From NCBI RefSeq assembly GCF_022810765.1, contig NZ_CP094494.1, positions 62,001 through 126,000 on the forward strand: a DNA stretch of 64,000 nt, in the 5' to 3' direction. A program made the position numbers and the translations under genes. Of this stretch, positions 3,440 to 10,852 are shown in pieces; the first letter of the stretch is position 1, and each line of letters opens with the position of its first letter. The DNA is from Winogradskyella sp. MH6. Its GTDB lineage: Bacteria > Bacteroidota > Bacteroidia > Flavobacteriales > Flavobacteriaceae. Below the pieces are notes generated by a model that was given only the letters and a program-made list of their open reading frames with translations, made no database searches and was not told the DNA's origin.

Positions 3440-4141
3440 ATGTATACTATGATAGGTGTTATTGTTGTTTTTGCTATCTCGTGGTTGCTTCTTTGGCTTA
3501 TTGAAAGGGAGCATATAACTGTTTTGGGTATACTACCTAACGGCAAACGCCTAAAAGCGTTTTTTGTTGGCATGGTTATAATGGCTGTGTTTTGCTTAAT
3601 TAATTTACTAGGACAGGCTTATTTTAAGGAATTTAACTACGTACGAAATGTAGACTACGGCTTTAAGGAAAGCCTCAATGGTATCTGGTGGACTTTTAAG
3701 GCTGCTTTTTTTGAAGAACTTATTTTTAGAGGTGCATTACTCTATCTACTCATTAAACGTTTAGGTATTAACTGGGCTTGTATTATTAGTGCTATTGCTT
3801 TTGGGATTTACCATTGGTTTAGTTACCAAATGTTTGGACGTGGTCTTGTACCTATGGCATACGTATTTATATTGACTGGTGCTTCTGGATGGATGTTTGC
3901 TTATGCCTTTGCAAAAACCAAGTCTATATTAGTGCCTTTAGGGTTGCATTTTGGATGGATTGTGATTAGCATTGTTGTTCTTTCTGCTGGTCCTTTAGGA
4001 GATTCATTATATGTTGCAGATGGTAAAGGTGTTGATTTGAGTGGCTGGGAACAGTTATTGTTTTTTCTGTTGCAGGCTTTAATAGTTCCTGGAGTTATTA
4101 CATGGTATATCTATAAGAATTATAAGAGAAGAGAGGTTTGA
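3440..4141 (+). CDS. CPBP family intramembrane metalloprotease (Abi/CAAX protease-like)
   Basis: 233 residues, by eye six to seven membrane segments. The active-site motifs are all present: FFEELIFRG with Glu92, Glu93 and Arg97, HWF with His125, and LGLHFGW with His170. These are the glutamates and histidines expected for the Rce1-like zinc or glutamate protease. Bacterial members process prenylated-like or regulatory peptides, or act in bacteriocin self-protection; the substrate here is unknown. Stands alone and convergent with the next gene. Confidence 0.88.
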   Translation: MYTMIGVIVVFAISWLLLWLIEREHITVLGILPNGKRLKAFFVGMVIMAVFCLINLLGQAYFKEFNYVRNVDYGFKESLNGIWWTFKAAFFEELIFRGALLYLLIKRLGINWACIISAIAFGIYHWFSYQMFGRGLVPMAYVFILTGASGWMFAYAFAKTKSILVPLGLHFGWIVISIVVLSAGPLGDSLYVADGKGVDLSGWEQLLFFLLQALIVPGVITWYIYKNYKRREV

Positions 4142-4163: not shown

Positions 4164-4847
4164 CTAATGTGATTTATTTAACTCACCATTTTTGTTTTCA
4201 AATCGATAATCGATTTTCATGAAACTTATTTTTCCCTTTTCAAGCTTTGTTATCAGCTTTGGTGCCGATACAATTCCTTGAATTATTATAAAACCGTTAA
4301 AGTCTATTATTTTGTATTCGGATTCCCATTCTGAATTTCTTTCTAGAGGTTTTACTTTTACTAGTCCGTTTTTTTGATATGTAAACTGATATTCTTTAAT
4401 GTCTTCAACAGACTCTATTAATGGCTCTTCTTGCAGTGTGGATTTAAGCTTTTCTAGATCAATTTTATTGAATTGTAGGTCTAATTTGACGTATGGCAAT
4501 GTATAGCCATTAAATTGTATGGTTAAAGAATCTTTAGAATGTAACGTAAGAGTTTCTTTGTCGCTTAATTGATAGGTATTGTTGTTGGAAGCTTTTAGGT
4601 TTAAAGTATCTCTGTAAACAAAAACCTTGGTTTCTCCTGTTTCCATATTTAGTTTGTCTTGTGTTCTTAATCTGTAAAACTGGTTTGATTTTGAACTAAA
4701 GAGAAAGCTTTGAATTTTTGCTCGTTCTATAAAATTACCTAAAGAATCGTATACCCCTTTGGTTCTCCATAATTTTTCTTCTTCGATATTTTGTCCAAAG
4801 CTTAGAGTTGAAACCAATATGATTAGTATTGTAAGTGTGTTTTTCAT
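4164..4847 (-). CDS. Secreted hypothetical protein, 227 residues
   Basis: Signal peptide MKNTLTILIILVSTLSFGQ with likely cleavage after FGQ or just before. The mature part is rich in Thr, Lys and Leu with alternating polarity, suggesting a periplasmic beta-rich protein. I do not recognise a family. It lies 64 bases downstream of the DUF1801 gene on the same strand. Confidence 0.6.
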   Translation of the reverse strand: MKNTLTILIILVSTLSFGQNIEEEKLWRTKGVYDSLGNFIERAKIQSFLFSSKSNQFYRLRTQDKLNMETGETKVFVYRDTLNLKASNNNTYQLSDKETLTLHSKDSLTIQFNGYTLPYVKLDLQFNKIDLEKLKSTLQEEPLIESVEDIKEYQFTYQKNGLVKVKPLERNSEWESEYKIIDFNGFIIIQGIVSAPKLITKLEKGKISFMKIDYRFENKNGELNKSH

Positions 4848-4911: not shown

Positions 4912-5301
4912 TTATTTTGCTCTTAAAATCCACTCGTTTACAATTGATGATAAGTCTGCTTTTGCCTTCTCAATTTCGAATCTGTTTTTGAAGGTTATAA
5001 TTGCTCTGTCATTCTCTTTCCATAGTAAGAGTTTTGACTTTGATTGAATAATTCTGTCTTCTGGCTGTTCTTGTTTTTTTGCCCCTCTGTGAAAAATCAA
5101 TTGTATTTGCTTTGGTGGCTGAATTTTCATTGTTATTCGGTCATTATCATTGTAACAATAATTTGGTCCATTCCACTTTATATTTTCTGTTAAGCCATTT
5201 GTGGCATTTGTTATAATATGACGCAAATTCTCTATTTCATCTCGCAATGGATGATTTAATCCGTCAAGAAATTTAGAAACTTCCACATTTAATTTATTCA
5301 T
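4912..5301 (-). CDS. DUF1801 domain-containing protein
   Basis: 129 residues with the DUF1801 (YdhG-like) pattern: LRDEIENLRHIITNA, then ENIKWNGPNYCYNDND and PPKQIQLIFHRGA. The fold resembles the frataxin-like YdhG proteins; function is unknown. The start codon lies about 15 bases from the left arm of a long palindromic repeat (5302-5449), the spacing also seen at the cassette-like genes further right. Confidence 0.8.
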   Translation of the reverse strand: MNKLNVEVSKFLDGLNHPLRDEIENLRHIITNATNGLTENIKWNGPNYCYNDNDRITMKIQPPKQIQLIFHRGAKKQEQPEDRIIQSKSKLLLWKENDRAIITFKNRFEIEKAKADLSSIVNEWILRAK

Positions 5302-5449
5302 GTTTTATGTTTAAATAAGCGTTAACGGTTAGATCATAATTTGTTTGGAAAAAGGGTACAGTCATTATTCCTCTATGACCGAAAGATAACAAATTGCTGC
5401 TGAATTGCGACTTGAGATTCAGCAGCAATGCGTTATGCAATTATAGTGC
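5302..5449. repeat. Cassette-flanking palindromic repeat 1 (attC-like, diverged)
   Basis: Intergenic element between the DUF1801 start and the rsgA stop. It carries a perfect 13-bp stem, ATTGCTGCTGAAT (5393-5405) with ATTCAGCAGCAAT (5417-5429), and a smaller GTCAT/ATGAC pair. Outer arms GTTAACGGTTAGATCATAAT and GCGTTATGCAATTATAGTGC align loosely with the arms of the elements at 7220 and 7904. The stop of rsgA touches its right arm. It could also act as the rsgA transcription terminator, though no T-run follows. Confidence 0.45.
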
Positions 5450-6517
5450 TTAGTACCTATTTGACTTTTTTATATTTTTAAATTGCTTAACCATCTTTCC
5501 AAAGTTCTTGTCCTTTTGGCGTTTTTCTGCAACAGTAGATTCAAAATGTTCTTGTTCTCGTTTCATTTTTAGATAATTTTCATAGAACAATTTATCTATT
5601 TTCTTGCTTTCTACGGCAGCTACAACAGCACAACCCGTTTCTATGGTATGGGTGCAATCCTTGAATTTGCAGTTTTTAGATAGCTCAACTATTTTATCGA
5701 ATGTTTTTTCCAAACCTCCAACGGCATCTGCAATACCCACTTCTCTTATTCCTGGGTTGTCTATTATAATTCCACCATCTTCAAGAACTATTAATTCTCG
5801 GTGGCTTGTAATGTGCCGTCCTTTATTGGTACTTGTGCTAATGGTATTTGTTTTCATTAGTTGCCTTCCTAAAAGATTGTTTAGAAGGCTTGATTTTCCT
5901 ACTCCAGACGAGCCCAACAAACAGTAAGTTTTGCCCTTTACGATATGCTCTTTTAGTTTTTCAATCCCTTTTTTGGACTTATTGCTTATAGCAATTATTG
6001 GTACTTGCTTTACTCTTTCTTGAACTTGTGATATTAAATTGGTTAAAGCTTCATCATTTATTAAGTCAATTTTATTTAGGATGATTATCGTTTTTACATG
6101 AGATGCATTGCAAATTGTTAGATACCGTTCTACACGATTGATATTAAAATCTCTGTCGATTGCTTGTACTATAAACGCAAAGTCTATATTGGTTGCTATG
6201 ATTTGTTTTTCTCCGTGTTTTCCCACCGCTTGTCTTTTAATGATGGTTTTTCTGGGTAAAATAGAGTGTATGAGAACTTTATCATCTCCATATTCAGAAA
6301 TGGCAACCCAATCTCCTATGGCAGGAAAATCTTCGCGAGTATTTGCAGTATATCTTAAGTTTCCTGTGATTTCTGCATCAAATTCCCCTTTTTCAGTTTT
6401 AACTATATATCGTTCCTTATGCTCTGAAATAACTCTTCCGATTTCAAAGTTTAATAAATTATGTTGAATTCTTAGTATTTCTATGTTGTCGTTATATCCG
6501 AAATGTTCTAGTTTCAT
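5450..6517 (-). CDS. rsgA: Ribosome small subunit-dependent GTPase A
   Basis: Circularly permuted GTPase that checks late 30S maturation. Order in the 355 residues: N-terminal OB fold (about 20-110), NKID at 148-151 (G4), GSSGVGKSS at 202-210 (G1), the Thr-rich switch I around 224-236 with GRHIT, DNPG at 253-256 (G3), then the zinc knuckle Cys283, Cys288, His290, Cys296. All key residues are intact. It sits among small accessory genes with palindromic repeats on both sides and is longer than the core flavobacterial RsgA that I recall (about 315), so it may be an acquired second copy rather than the housekeeping one; that part is inference. Confidence 0.93.
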   Translation of the reverse strand: MKLEHFGYNDNIEILRIQHNLLNFEIGRVISEHKERYIVKTEKGEFDAEITGNLRYTANTREDFPAIGDWVAISEYGDDKVLIHSILPRKTIIKRQAVGKHGEKQIIATNIDFAFIVQAIDRDFNINRVERYLTICNASHVKTIIILNKIDLINDEALTNLISQVQERVKQVPIIAISNKSKKGIEKLKEHIVKGKTYCLLGSSGVGKSSLLNNLLGRQLMKTNTISTSTNKGRHITSHRELIVLEDGGIIIDNPGIREVGIADAVGGLEKTFDKIVELSKNCKFKDCTHTIETGCAVVAAVESKKIDKLFYENYLKMKREQEHFESTVAEKRQKDKNFGKMVKQFKNIKKSNRY

Positions 6518-6877
6518 ATTCTGTGTGTTTTAAAATATTGCAAACACTTGCGGTATTCATTACATGAATTTAAATATAATAGCGCTTACAATTGATGTGT
6601 TTTTTTGTAAAATGTAAATACGTAGGAAATGCTTCAGGGCATTACCTGAAGTAGCGAATGGTGATAGCCAAAGAAAATTGACTATCTATTTTACAATATC
6701 CGAATATGATATTACAGATGTAATAGACATAAAATGTAATTAGAGTACAAAATTAAGCATTTCTCTTGTAAGGTTAAAAATAAAGAGCGTGCTTTTGTAT
6801 TGAGTATGGTGGTTTGTCTATGGTTTGTTGCGTGAAAATCCGTAGTGATGAATTATACACGTTGTTAACAAACATTT
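6518..6877. repeat. Cassette-flanking repeat 2, arms of a longer palindromic element
   Basis: 360 bases without a gene. The right end, GATGAATTATACACGTTGTT (6848-6867), is almost the same as the right arm of the element at 7904, and it stops 10 bases from the stop codon of the next gene. The left end, GCAAACACTTGCGGTATTCA (about 6540-6560), is a loose reverse complement of it. The interior is not the 51-base core of the other elements but has its own small hairpin, CTTCAGG/CCTGAAG (6632-6651). No open frame of note. Confidence 0.4.
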
Positions 6878-7219
6878 TCAATTATTAAAATTTATGTCTA
6901 GTCTTGAATCCGATAGAATATAAGTCCAAATAGGTAAAAAAGTCAGAATAATAAGAACAACCGAAAGTATAATTCCAATTATTCCAATCCGATTTTTATT
7001 CCGCAACGATTTTATTCCGAGAATAATTCCGATTAATGCTATTCCGAGTGCTATTATTTTATTCAATTTTTTGGTCGTAAAAACTGCTGGATTTAATTCA
7101 GTTTGATTTTCCATTTTTAGAATTTCAGACTCGAATAATTCTACAATTTCGAGATTAAACCAAATGACAAATAAGATTCCAATTAATACTACAATTATTG
7201 AGATTATTCCTGTTTTCAT
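6878..7219 (-). CDS. Small membrane protein in cassette-like unit, 113 residues
   Basis: Three probable membrane segments: residues 4-21, 55-69 and 78-100, with a polar loop rich in Glu and Asn between the first two. Isoleucine is very frequent. No family recognised. Stop codon lies about 10 bases from repeat 2 and the ATG about 17 bases from the arm of repeat 3, a tight cassette arrangement shared with the next two genes. Confidence 0.6.
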   Translation of the reverse strand: MKTGIISIIVVLIGILFVIWFNLEIVELFESEILKMENQTELNPAVFTTKKLNKIIALGIALIGIILGIKSLRNKNRIGIIGIILSVVLIILTFLPIWTYILSDSRLDINFNN

Positions 7220-7372
7220 TTTTTGGTCAAATGCTTGCTAACGGTCTCGTATAACCGTCAGTTACGGGATTGAAGTTAATAATTTTCGGTTTAGCACTGA
7301 CGTTAGCAATTCCGAGTGGATTCGGACGTAGTCGAATCCGCCGTAATTGCGGTTATACATTGCTGTAGCACA
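7220..7372. repeat. Cassette-flanking palindromic repeat 3 (attC-like)
   Basis: About 150 bases. Outer arms GCTAACGGTCTCGTATAACCG (near 7237-7257, first bases only quoted in part) and CGGTTATACATTGCTGTAGC (7350-7369) are imperfect inverted repeats, with GTATAACCG pairing exactly with CGGTTATAC. The core 7297-7347 is identical over 51 bases to 7980-8030 in repeat 4 and has an inner stem GGATTCG/CGAATCC (7318-7324, 7333-7339). The stop of the next gene begins 2 bases after the right arm. The layout recalls integron attC sites, but the canonical R boxes are not exact. Confidence 0.6.
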
Positions 7373-7903
7373 TTATTTTTTATATTCTGTCCTTTCAACG
7401 AGTTGGTCATTTTTATATTTTTCAATTCTCAAAGTATCTCCTTTTTTATCTAAATAAATCCAAACAGAATCTTTCTTGAAATCATTTTCAGTAGTACTTG
7501 TCCAATTTTCAGTATCAATTTTCCAAAATTTTGTGACTGCTGTTTGTCCAGAGTTATAATTCCACGTTTCGGTTTTTATCGTAATTCCATTTCTCGGATT
7601 ATAACTAGTTCCTATTAATTGCATTTCAGGTCTTGTTAAAGCAGAAAATCCCCAAATTGATAAAGGTGTACATAAAATCAAAAAAGCGATAGTCGAAATT
7701 TTCATTTCTTTACTGAACCATTCTTTACGATTTTTAAATGCTAATATTCTAACAGTAATTAGAGTCGCAACCCAGAATAAAGGAAAAATAATTATGTAAA
7801 TCATTGCTCTTCCTGCGTTCAGAGTTTCAGAGTTTTTAAAAAAGAATAGATTGATTATTAAAAAAACAATTGCAATAATTAATAACGTTTTATTCAATTT
7901 CAT
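7373..7903 (-). CDS. Membrane-anchored hypothetical protein in cassette-like unit, 176 residues
   Basis: Start placed at ATG 7903 (MKLNKTLLIIAIVFLIIN); a TTG 12 bases upstream is possible. Three membrane segments (about 5-22, 32-52, 66-86) are followed by a soluble C-terminal domain. The end, WIYLDKKGDTLRIEKYKNDQ, resembles the short beta repeats of MORN/YwqK-like proteins, but too few copies are present to assign the family. Lies between repeats 3 and 4. Confidence 0.6.
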   Translation of the reverse strand: MKLNKTLLIIAIVFLIINLFFFKNSETLNAGRAMIYIIIFPLFWVATLITVRILAFKNRKEWFSKEMKISTIAFLILCTPLSIWGFSALTRPEMQLIGTSYNPRNGITIKTETWNYNSGQTAVTKFWKIDTENWTSTTENDFKKDSVWIYLDKKGDTLRIEKYKNDQLVERTEYKK

Positions 7904-8055
7904 ATGTGTTCTCAAATGTGCTACAACGGTTTGTATAACCGAAGTTACGGGTTAATATGCGTTAATTTTCGGTTTGGAACTGACGTTAGCAATTCCGAGT
8001 GGATTCGGACGTAGTCGAATCCGCCGTAATGAATTATACACGTTGTTGTGGCACG
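7904..8055. repeat. Cassette-flanking palindromic repeat 4 (attC-like)
   Basis: About 150 bases with arms GTGCTACAACGGTTTGTATA (7918-7937) and TATACACGTTGTTGTGGCAC (8035-8054), imperfect inverted repeats of each other. Its core 7980-8030 is identical to 7297-7347 in repeat 3; the inner stem GGATTCG/CGAATCC is at 8001-8007 and 8016-8022 with an 8-base loop. The flanking gene ends 1-2 bases beyond the right arm, and the other gene starts about 15 bases from the left arm. Confidence 0.6.
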
Positions 8056-8532
8056 TTATTTATATTCATATTTATTCCGCCAAATTTCTTCTCCTTTCAA
8101 AAAGTCGAGAAGAATTTCAGTCATTTGTTCAACTGTTTCTAATGGTTTAACTAGTAAAATATGGTCATCGTCTGTTACAAATCCAGACGCTAATCCATCA
8201 TCGCCTAAACTTCCGCTTACGTGCAATGCTTTGTATCCATTTCCATTTTCATCTTCCAGTTCCACAATGTGAAATTCATTCCAATTTGTTGATTCCATTG
8301 TGCTTTTTATTATTTCCGCAGTTGCTTTTTCAGATATAGTTTTTGTGATTTCTCCATAATCATAAGAGACAGTAAGTTTTAAATCTCGTTGTTTTTGTCG
8401 GATTTCACGATTCAGTAATTCAGACTTATTTTCTGCGATTTCGTGTGTGTTTGAATTCCGTTTTGAATTCCAACTAACCAAAGCGAATATTCCGATTAAT
8501 GCTAAAATTCCAAAGATTATGTAGGTATTCAT
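8056..8532 (-). CDS. Single-pass membrane-anchored hypothetical protein in cassette-like unit, 158 residues
   Basis: Start chosen at ATG 8532 (MNTYIIFGILALIGIFALVS); a GTG 9 bases upstream is also possible. One N-terminal membrane segment (about residues 2-21), a short charged helix, then an alpha/beta domain with an acidic loop (VELEDENGNGY) and a Gly/Asp-rich turn (GSLGDDGLASGFVTDDD). No family recognised. Stop codon practically touches repeat 4. Confidence 0.6.
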   Translation of the reverse strand: MNTYIIFGILALIGIFALVSWNSKRNSNTHEIAENKSELLNREIRQKQRDLKLTVSYDYGEITKTISEKATAEIIKSTMESTNWNEFHIVELEDENGNGYKALHVSGSLGDDGLASGFVTDDDHILLVKPLETVEQMTEILLDFLKGEEIWRNKYEYK

Positions 8533-8580
8533 TCTTTTCACGTTATTTTTTGGTTTAATGTGCTACTACTAGCTATATTA
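8533..8580. repeat. Partial cassette-flanking repeat (element edge)
   Basis: Contains CACGTTATTTTTTGGTTTAA (8539-8558) then TGTGCTACTACTAGC. CACGTTATTT also follows the right arm of repeat 4, and AATGTGCTAC also opens its left arm. Only the edge is present; the rest is missing or has diverged, and the recQ terminator follows. This probably marks the right boundary of the cassette-like run. Confidence 0.35.
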
Positions 8581-8650: not shown

Positions 8651-10852
8651 TTAATTCGCTACTTCGCTAATAAACTTAATGCGGTAGAGACGTAACTCTT
8701 CATCGTCATAGTCGCCATCAAATTCTTCTATAGCATCAGAGATTTTATCGCTTTGAGAGTCCATAAAGTAGTCGTGGATTTCTTCTTGCTGGTCTTCATC
8801 TAAGATTTCATCGATCCAATAATCTATATTCAGCTTGGTACCAGAGTAGACTATAGATTCCATTTCGCCTATAAACTCTGGCATTTCCATACCTTTTGCA
8901 GAAGCGATATCATCTAATGGCAGTTTTCTATCTACATTTTGTATAATGTAGAGTTTGAGCGCAGAGTTAGAGCCTGTAGATTTTACGACCATATCGTCTG
9001 GTCTGGTAATATCGTTTTCTTCTACATAGTCTGCTATAAGGTTTACAAAATCTTTACCGTACTTTTTGGCTTTGCTTTCTCCTACTCCATGCACATTAGA
9101 CAACTCTTCTATATTTATTGGATATTTTAATGCCATATCCTCTAAAGAAGGGTCTTGGAAAATAACAAATGGTGGTACTCCTAACTTTTTGGCATTGCGC
9201 TTGCGCAAATCCTTGAGCATGGTCATTAGTTGCTCGTCTGCTACTGCTCCACCACCTTTAGCGTTTGTAACAATGTTGTCGCTAGACTCGTCGTCGTACA
9301 CATGGTCTTCTGCCATCATAAACGATTGCGGATTCTTTAAGAAGTCCTTACCTGTTTTGCTTAATCGCAGCACACCATAGGTCTCAATATCTTTCTTTAA
9401 AAGTCCTGCTACAATTACCTGACGTATTAGTGCCATCCAAAAACGGTCTTCCTTGCCTTTACCTATACCAAAAAATGGTTGGCTATCTGTTTTGTGAGAT
9501 GAGATTAAGGCATTAGATTTTCCTATAATAACCTGTACAAGGTCTTTTGCTTTGTACTTTTCGTTGGTTTTATCTACGGTATCTAAAAGTATCTTTACTT
9601 CGTCTTGAGCTTCTACCTGTTTTTTAGGATTACGAACGTTGTCGTCCATATCTCCACCTTCGCCAGTTTCATTGTCAAACTCTTCACCAAAATAATGAAG
9701 GATGAACTTTCGTCTAGACATGGATGTTTCTGCAAAGGCTACAACTTCTTGTAACAAGGCATGGCCAATTTCTTGTTCTGCCACAGGTTTGCCAGACATA
9801 AACTTCTCTAGTTTTTCTATGTCCTTGTAGGCATAGTAAGCTAAACAATGGCCTTCACCACCATCTCGACCTGCTCTACCTGTTTCTTGATAGTAGCTTT
9901 CTATGCTCTTTGGAATATCGTGATGAATTACAAAACGCACATCTGGTTTGTCTATACCCATACCAAAGGCAATGGTTGCTACAACCACATCGGTATCTTC
10001 CATTAAGAACATATCCTGGTGTTTTACTCTGGTTTTAGCATCTAATCCTGCATGGTATGGCACAGCTTTAATGCCGTTAACCTGAAGCACCTGTGCTAAC
10101 TCTTCTACACGCTTTCTACTTAAACAATAAACAATACCAGATTTACCTTCGTTTTGCTTAATGAAACGAATGATATCTGCATCTACATTCTTTGTTTTTG
10201 GGCGTACTTCGTAAAATAAGTTTGGTCTGTTAAACGATGCTTTAAAGGTTACAGCATCTGTCATACCCAAACTTTTAAGAATATCCTCTTGCACCTTTGG
10301 AGTTGCTGTTGCTGTAAGCCCAATGATAGGAATATCGTTTCCTATGCGCTTTATAATTTGTCTTAAGTTTCGGTATTCTGGTCTAAAATCGTGTCCCCAT
10401 TCACTAATACAATGCGCTTCGTCTACTGCCATGAATGAGATTTTCTGAGTCTTCAAAAAATCTACGTATTCTTCCTTAGTTAACGATTCTGGTGCTACGT
10501 ATAATAGCTTTGTAATGCCATTAATGATATCATCCTTTACACGCTTTACTTCGGTTTTGTTTAACGACGAATTTAAAACGTGTGCGACTCCTTCATTATC
10601 GGATACTGCGCGTATAGCATCCACCTGGTTTTTCATTAATGCAATAAGTGGAGAGACCACAATTGCTGTTCCGTCTTTTATTAAAGCTGGTAGTTGATAA
10701 CAGAGCGATTTTCCGCCACCTGTTGGCATAATAACAAAGGTGTTATTACCTTTTACTACATTTTTAATAACTTCTTCTTGTAGACCCTTAAACCCAGAAA
10801 AACCAAAGTATTTTTTTAGTGAGGAGTGTAAGTCAATTTCTGCAATACTCAT
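8651..10852 (-). CDS. recQ: ATP-dependent DNA helicase RecQ
   Basis: 3'-5' DNA helicase of recombination and replication-fork repair, 733 residues. Walker A MPTGGGKSLCYQLP (about 42-55), DEAH box with VDEAHCISEWGHDFRPEY (about 142-159), helicase motif VI QETGRAGRDG (about 322-331), a winged-helix/RQC part (about 400-510) and an HRDC domain around 535-605. The usual Cys cluster of the RecQ zinc site is absent: after MSRRKFILHYFGEEF comes a Gly/Asp-rich stretch with no cysteine, as if the zinc knuckle was lost. The C-terminus adds about 90 acidic residues. Confidence 0.95.
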   Translation of the reverse strand: MSIAEIDLHSSLKKYFGFSGFKGLQEEVIKNVVKGNNTFVIMPTGGGKSLCYQLPALIKDGTAIVVSPLIALMKNQVDAIRAVSDNEGVAHVLNSSLNKTEVKRVKDDIINGITKLLYVAPESLTKEEYVDFLKTQKISFMAVDEAHCISEWGHDFRPEYRNLRQIIKRIGNDIPIIGLTATATPKVQEDILKSLGMTDAVTFKASFNRPNLFYEVRPKTKNVDADIIRFIKQNEGKSGIVYCLSRKRVEELAQVLQVNGIKAVPYHAGLDAKTRVKHQDMFLMEDTDVVVATIAFGMGIDKPDVRFVIHHDIPKSIESYYQETGRAGRDGGEGHCLAYYAYKDIEKLEKFMSGKPVAEQEIGHALLQEVVAFAETSMSRRKFILHYFGEEFDNETGEGGDMDDNVRNPKKQVEAQDEVKILLDTVDKTNEKYKAKDLVQVIIGKSNALISSHKTDSQPFFGIGKGKEDRFWMALIRQVIVAGLLKKDIETYGVLRLSKTGKDFLKNPQSFMMAEDHVYDDESSDNIVTNAKGGGAVADEQLMTMLKDLRKRNAKKLGVPPFVIFQDPSLEDMALKYPINIEELSNVHGVGESKAKKYGKDFVNLIADYVEENDITRPDDMVVKSTGSNSALKLYIIQNVDRKLPLDDIASAKGMEMPEFIGEMESIVYSGTKLNIDYWIDEILDEDQQEEIHDYFMDSQSDKISDAIEEFDGDYDDEELRLYRIKFISEVAN

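Follow-up and report, generated by a model that had tools for sequence, protein, structure and literature searches.

What separates the small genes that lie just past a presumed recQ gene in Winogradskyella sp. MH6, and have these genes been moved as units? The stretch analysed here, called the window, is 64,000 nucleotides (nt) of contig NZ_CP094494.1 (positions 62,001 to 126,000), and the locus lies at 5302-8580 of it. A first-pass annotation, made from the sequence, took the locus for a run of integron-type cassettes whose attC sites form a divergent class, or for another mobile-cassette system, and the checks that we ran support it. Integrons are a bacterial means of collecting and shuffling ready-made genes. 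With a probability of roughly 0.88, the elements between the genes are attC-type sites belonging to an integron-like system whose platform is 366 kb off, and the few cassettes in the window form an outlying cluster that occupies a secondary site past recQ. What points to this in the sequence is an array, a strand bias, a circular-junction signature, a folding bias, duplicated cassettes with matching ends, and species-specific cassettes at one point.

The site of an integron cassette is complete only in the circle, and therefore its opening arm has to fit the beginning of that cassette and not the other end of the site. We used pairs of neighbouring elements at most 2500 nt apart, with a search pattern that leaves out the tested bases. 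In a first set, 196 pairs from 33 arrays, the arm matched its own start at 7.62 of 10 positions on average, as compared to 3.78 for its own 3' end and 3.86 for a random other start, and the own start was the better one in 171 pairs. A larger set, including the named loci and freed of identical units, gave an exact match over 7 nt to the own start in 154 of 284 and to the adjacent 3' end in 2 of 284 (156 and 2 of 289 with the duplicates kept). At each of the positions +4 to +9 the arm pairs with its own cassette start in 87-90%, and with the adjacent 3' end in 27-63%. The canonical core, GTTRRRY and RYYYAAC, was not found; GTTR is mostly kept and is followed by variable bases, with 124 distinct 6-mers after GTT in the duplicate-free cassette set, while an A stands at +11 in 99% of 284 cassettes. 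Double-strand recombination usually needs a homologous overlap, and this is missing here because the six bases after GTT vary between cassettes. The complementarity of arm and start reads as the mark of circular cassettes that would have been cut near G/TT.

As the first-pass annotation led us to expect, the single strands fold. RNAalifold gave 13 consensus pairs in the L stem of 45 sites, with compensatory changes in 10 of them, and one L-box pair is CG in 16 sites, GC in 15 and AU in 14. Sites were circularised and kept if the first seven arm bases had at most one mismatch to the cassette start. The bottom strand was the more stable one in 202 of 204 distinct sites and the less stable in 1, with means of -29.4 as compared to -24.9 kcal/mol (206 of 208 with duplicates). 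Two nearly fixed A.C mismatches of the top strand, which are G.T pairs on the bottom strand, are the main features behind this stability: in the R stem the mismatch is at +11 and occurs in 181 of 208 sites, and in the L stem it is at columns 13/118 and occurs in 38 of 45. The bias agrees with the bottom-strand preference of known integrons, as given in an excerpt of PMC4792948. The elements have the fold of an attC site: a hairpin, paired R and L boxes and a favoured bottom strand. Transcription terminators or mRNA hairpins of operons would also fold and lie just past stop codons, as these elements do, but the outer arms are complementary to the beginning of the upstream gene and not to the neighbouring arm, it is the non-coding strand that folds better in those 202 of 204 sites, and the elements have no Rfam match; we consider this explanation next to impossible.

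The window itself has the features listed here, in which R1 is a covariance model built from 45 elements other than those of the window, and aa stands for amino acids. The cassette boundaries are putative and were set by likeness to the integron G/TT cut.

4912-5301, minus strand: DUF1801 gene (Pfam PF08818), start junction CCGTTAACGC present, terminal element not recognised
5323-5442, minus strand: degenerate attC-like remnant, doubtful, preceding the DUF1801 gene (R1 18.0 bits, E 0.047)
5450-6517, minus strand: RsgA-type GTPase gene, possibly of a cassette (Pfam PF03193, E 2.4e-49)
6810-6866, minus strand: internally deleted attC-like element of 57 nt in a 360-base gap, closing the cassette of the 113-aa gene (R1 25.8 bits, E 0.0007)
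6878-7219, minus strand: 113-aa cassette gene, open frame, no Pfam match
7239-7364, minus strand: attC-like element 1, closing the cassette of the 180-aa gene (R1 75 bits, E 2.3e-15)
7242-7926, minus strand: putative cassette with the 180-aa gene, from start TTGTAGCACATTT to its end at element 1, start and terminal arm complementary at 12/14
7373-7915, minus strand: 180-aa cassette gene, open frame, no Pfam match
7924-8047, minus strand: attC-like element 2, closing the cassette of the 161-aa gene (R1 71.5 bits, E 1.5e-14)
7927-8568, minus strand: putative cassette with the 161-aa gene, adjoining recQ, start and arm complementary at 11/14
8056-8541, minus strand: 161-aa cassette gene, open frame, no Pfam match
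8569-8580, minus strand: candidate secondary landing site just beyond recQ, reading ATATAGCTA and followed by the cassette start

All five genes noted earlier (at 4912, 5450, 6878, 7373 and 8056) are open and on the minus strand, and they are flanked by what we take to be recQ (8651-10852) on one side and by a secreted-protein gene at 4164 and a presumed CPBP-type gene at 3440 on the other. The four inverted-repeat elements seen between them turned out to be two intact ones of about 125 nt, one with an internal deletion and one doubtful remnant. Elements 1 and 2, which are 87% identical over 99 nt, do share an exact block, at 7296-7347 and 7979-8030, but it is 52 and not 51 bases long. Both fold better as single strands than dinucleotide shuffles (z -2.39 and -2.84). 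The R'' box of element 1 ends in AGC and not AAC, and the cassette of the 161-aa gene starts with GTA where the others have GTT. With the arm of the deleted element, which fits the start of the 113-aa-gene cassette at 12/14, the window cassettes match at 11, 12 and 12 of 14 positions; random 14-mers starting with GTT reach at least 11/14 with P = 0.003. The Pfam search found six PF00589 matches in the genome and none inside the window. With two sites intact by model R1 and no integrase nearby, the locus may be a cluster of attC sites lacking integron-integrases (CALIN), which is defined by at least two attC sites. The absence of a tyrosine recombinase, noted at first, is true for the window, but the genome has one, which adjoins the full array:

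C1:436129-437271: 380-aa tyrosine recombinase, directly before an element cluster at C1:438-450 kb

This platform, 366 kb from the window, consists of the recombinase, an attI-like inverted repeat and a 16-kb array. The core sequence of the window elements has 11 matches in the genome, 7 in the window, with one cluster at C1:438-450 kb. The array runs downstream of the integrase on the same strand to about C1:453.7 kb and holds mostly small genes with elements after them. The covariance model finds 36 elements in the genome at E <=0.05, 16 in the main array, 3 in the window and 17 elsewhere. Outlying groups were observed at C1:181, 752, 1195, 2002-2006, 2346, 2399, 2650, 3134, 3211, 3244 and 3429-3436 kb. 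Ten proteins of the array were compared with Pfam: seven match a family at E <=0.01 (a Mrr-type nuclease, DinB_2, a kinase-like AAA, SUKH and T2SSG among them), and three do not at this threshold. Beyond the end of the array (L010 3724-8760) lie genes that we named by eye, presumably an S24/LexA-like repressor gene followed by DinB/UmuC-like and DnaE-like polymerase genes, which together resemble an SOS-type mutagenesis group.

Between integrase and array there is a candidate attI. The first cassette start was located from its arm in 43 of 96 loci examined (one locus is counted twice), and in 41 of the 43 its distance from the integrase stop is 33-107 bp. An inverted repeat, of which GGATATAGTTAATAACTATATCCAATT is an example, typically precedes it, and GTT comes next.

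It was also possible to compare the orthologous recQ locus between species, and as had been suggested they differ by gene-plus-element units. Thirteen relatives of the genus were searched with the model and five compared in detail with the MH6 sequence. Between recQ and the same flank, G600 has three other genes and two elements, G643 one element and other genes, G635 a degenerate element, and G640 three genes and no elements; G626 has none. The RsgA-type gene had no DNA match at this locus in the relatives searched. The common insertion point past recQ reads ATATAGCTA, then GTAGTAGCACATT in MH6, ATATAACCA, then GTTGTGTGTAAT in G600, and ATATAACTA, then GTTGTAGCACATT in G643. Insertion at attG (Loot et al. 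2024, as cited in an excerpt of PMC12901181) likewise places cassettes in the chromosome away from the platform, but in the present case at least three species have their cassettes at one and the same attI-like point past recQ.

The search of other Flavobacteriaceae that had been proposed recovered the elements in arrays across the family. Relatives of the integrase at E <=1e-60 are found in 88 of 149 genomes of the family, the closest in named genomes being from Winogradskyella (92% and 82%). Elements accompany the integrase at 17 of 20 loci with 57-73% identity, the contigs of the other three stopping within 0.3 kb past the integrase, and at 11 of 12 loci with 35-49%, the twelfth being cut by a contig end; in all 28 loci with elements, out of these 32, the elements are on the integrase strand. 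Downstream of the integrase at 80 named loci, three of them common to both sets, 149 elements are on the integrase strand and 0 on the other, and upstream there are 3 in 710 kb; on 20 of the contigs the sequence stops at most 400 bp downstream of the integrase, and on one it stops that close upstream. Where at least 1500 bp are available downstream, 44 of 50 named loci have at least one element. A whole-genome search with the model, in which no more than 135 candidates per genome were scored, found sites in 24 of 26 genomes, more than 100 in each of four and at least 133 in the richest; G040 has a long run of them at C1:3130-3198 kb. The only two genomes without sites, G023 and G035, have Xer-type hits alone (E up to 1e-25). 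Two integrases with an array each are present in the single-contig genomes G040, G056 and G100, and the two arrays of G100 have near-identical cassettes in common. For 244 of the 281 distinct intervals between elements the longest open reading frame (ORF) shares the strand of the integrase, for 15 it is on the opposite strand, and 22 have no ORF of 60 aa. The arrays have the single orientation, with a site closing each cassette, of integron arrays.

Whole units also recur. In L065 an 849-bp cassette is found, 100% identical, at two places of the array, one directly after the integrase. A unit of about 575 bp stands at several places in L070 and also in L057, a second platform of the same genome, a 475-bp unit is repeated in L052, and L056, L058 and L073 have further repeated units that end at junctions.

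Could the elements be ordinary mobile repeats (like miniature inverted-repeat transposable elements or repetitive extragenic palindromes), spread by a transposase, with the genes between them incidental? The high identity between copies and the 20 of 36 that lie outside the main array would suit such repeats, but they would not explain the strict orientation (149 against 0), the preference of the longest ORFs for the integrase strand (244 of 281 intervals), arms that pair with the distant end of the interval and not with the arm next to them, or the repetition of gene and element as a whole, and we find them very improbable.

Several observations weigh against the integron-like reading. The same 20 of 36 elements partly show the dispersal that was named at the outset as speaking against cassettes; those at recQ come with cassette genes and a common insertion point, but the detailed study covers the recQ place only. 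In the first set of pairs the own start matched worse than the control in 12 of 196 and equally well in 13. Some long repeats end away from junctions (L053, L068 and L075 among them). The first cassette was not located in 53 of the 96 loci, many of which end at a contig end, and 6 of the 50 named loci with enough downstream DNA have no element by the pattern. Element counts favour look-alikes because the pattern was derived from the MH6 array. Sites occur without an intact integrase of this type in G054 (15 sites) and G046 (2 sites), and beside a truncated one in G043 (2 sites). Outside the family, elements of the MH6 type are found beside integrase relatives in only 5 of 15 long loci. L135, L148 and L154, also outside the family, have chained links by the circular rule beside integrase relatives, few of them in L148 and L154; no element of the MH6 type was found in L135 and L154, and the links possibly belong to other site families.

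The mechanism that we infer, including the role of this integrase, the exact cut and a single-strand exchange, would be as follows. The bottom strand of the site of a cassette, about 125 nt, would fold into a hairpin, the integrase would cut the R' box between G and TT, and the cassette would be released as a circle, which would re-insert for the most part at attI and now and then at chromosomal sites resembling it.

Is this then an ordinary integron with a merely divergent IntI, and nothing new in kind? The integrase scores over the cut-off of NF040815, 'site-specific tyrosine recombinase/integron integrase', Foldseek places IntI4 (2a3v) among its best matches, and the geometry, the bottom-strand bias and the G/TT junction are integron-like. 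The integron integrase model TIGR02249, on the other hand, gives 202 bits against a cut-off of 265; it is exceeded in 57 of 198 genomes of the phylum, none of them in the family. The spacing between the boxes is 100 residues in IntI (22 of 30 measured) but 58-59 in the core integrases of the present type (13 of 15), 57-61 in distant relatives (21 of 23) and 65-66 in Xer (5 of 6), and the additional domain I2 of the catalytic domain, which is specific to IntI, is absent. IntI4 (PDB 2a3v) aligns in two pieces only, with 25 residues between them in the MH6 integrase as compared to 68, whereas the best PDB sequence matches, XerA (5hxy, 4a8e), align without a break in the box spacing. A tree of 75 proteins groups the 30 IntI in one clade and the 15 core integrases in another (100/100 each), and the Xer proteins of the family in a separate group with full or near full support; the program gave a long-branch warning, and the tree does not settle the deep branch order. 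The family Xer proteins also occur in genomes without sites. Together with an R box that continues from GTTR in variable bases and not as GTTRRRY, this makes a divergent IntI unlikely. By the membership tests the system is not an IntI integron, being outside the IntI clade and below the cut-off, although it appears to work like an integron.

Like IntI, the integrase has a tyrosine recombinase core, a SAM-like core-binding domain and the R-K-H-R-H-Y residues (R240, K265, H329, R332, H355 and Y364, invariant in an alignment of 30). It differs in having about 42 residues fewer between the boxes and about 80 more at the N-terminus, where it carries an extra domain. AlphaFold2 gave a mean predicted local distance difference test (pLDDT) score of 82.1 for the full length and 85.6 for the 107-residue N-terminal piece, of which the nearest solved folds, both weak matches, are the XPB damage-recognition domain and then the SMARCAL1 HARP domain. 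It is conceivable, at somewhat less than even odds, that this is a second, independently built class of integron, in which a Xer-like recombinase gained single-strand cassette recombination without I2, the folded DNA being read by an N-terminal domain of the XPB-DRD/HARP type in its place. Such a class would have more than 100 sites in single Flavobacteriaceae genomes, reach other families of Bacteroidia, and may be the source from which tet(X) became mobile. Should the integrase turn out to be independent of IntI and to work without an I2-like part, it would be a second invention of the integron. A recombinase survey from 2021 calls the insertion 'not fully conserved' in an integron-like group, yet essential for integron function (PMC8138268, as excerpted). 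An integrase without I2 makes a question of long standing testable, namely what a tyrosine recombinase needs to act on folded single strands.

A short recombinase gene precedes tet(X3) on plasmid p80-1-2-tetX3 (NZ_CP041297.1; L377 4052-6110), and its product is 53.8% identical to residues 148-379 of the MH6 integrase. Sixty plasmid records matched it, 48 of them from Acinetobacter (best 15 of 60 listed), and an excerpt of PMC8635130 calls the gene xerD. In one record the stretch between recombinase and tet(X3) holds an attI-like inverted repeat and, after it, GTTATGTGCCATTT, a sequence in agreement with the cassette-start consensus; the tet(X3) gene starts 18 nt further on. This is suggestive of tet(X3) as a first cassette, but the arm after the gene matches at only 10/14 and the element model gives no convincing site in the plasmid record.

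Sedentary chromosomal integrons of the V. cholerae type, together with CALIN, are the closest in organisation. They share the integrase with attI and a long array of mostly single-gene cassettes on the same strand, the hairpin sites with two paired boxes, the G/TT junction, the favoured bottom strand and the clusters away from the integrase. The present system differs in its integrase, which is not IntI and is without the IntI insert, in the R box that varies after GTTR, and in an attI-like site 3' of the integrase gene, with the array running in the same direction. Surveys based on IntI and canonical attC would probably miss this form; IntegronFinder 2.0 lists a single complete integron for Bacteroidetes proper, that of Salinibacter ruber, apart from those of Chlorobi and Ignavibacteriae (PMC9024848, as excerpted). 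We found no published description of the flavobacterial arrays in the literature searched, which excluded subscription journals and preprints, where one may exist. Apparently a large gene-capture system has been overlooked so far, and a large gene pool with a new attI/attC pair is opened for study.

Three elements of the MH6 main array are interrupted by copies of an IS110-type element (330-aa transposase), all at the identical spot between the L' and R' boxes:

L009 10644: IS110-type insertion
L009 12508: IS110-type insertion
L010 605: IS110-type insertion

This resembles the IS1111 members that target attC (ISKpn4 and ISPst6, in an excerpt of PMC11187229), also IS110-type elements at one fixed spot of a recombination site, but here the site family is a different one and the insertion is in the spacer between the L' and R' boxes.

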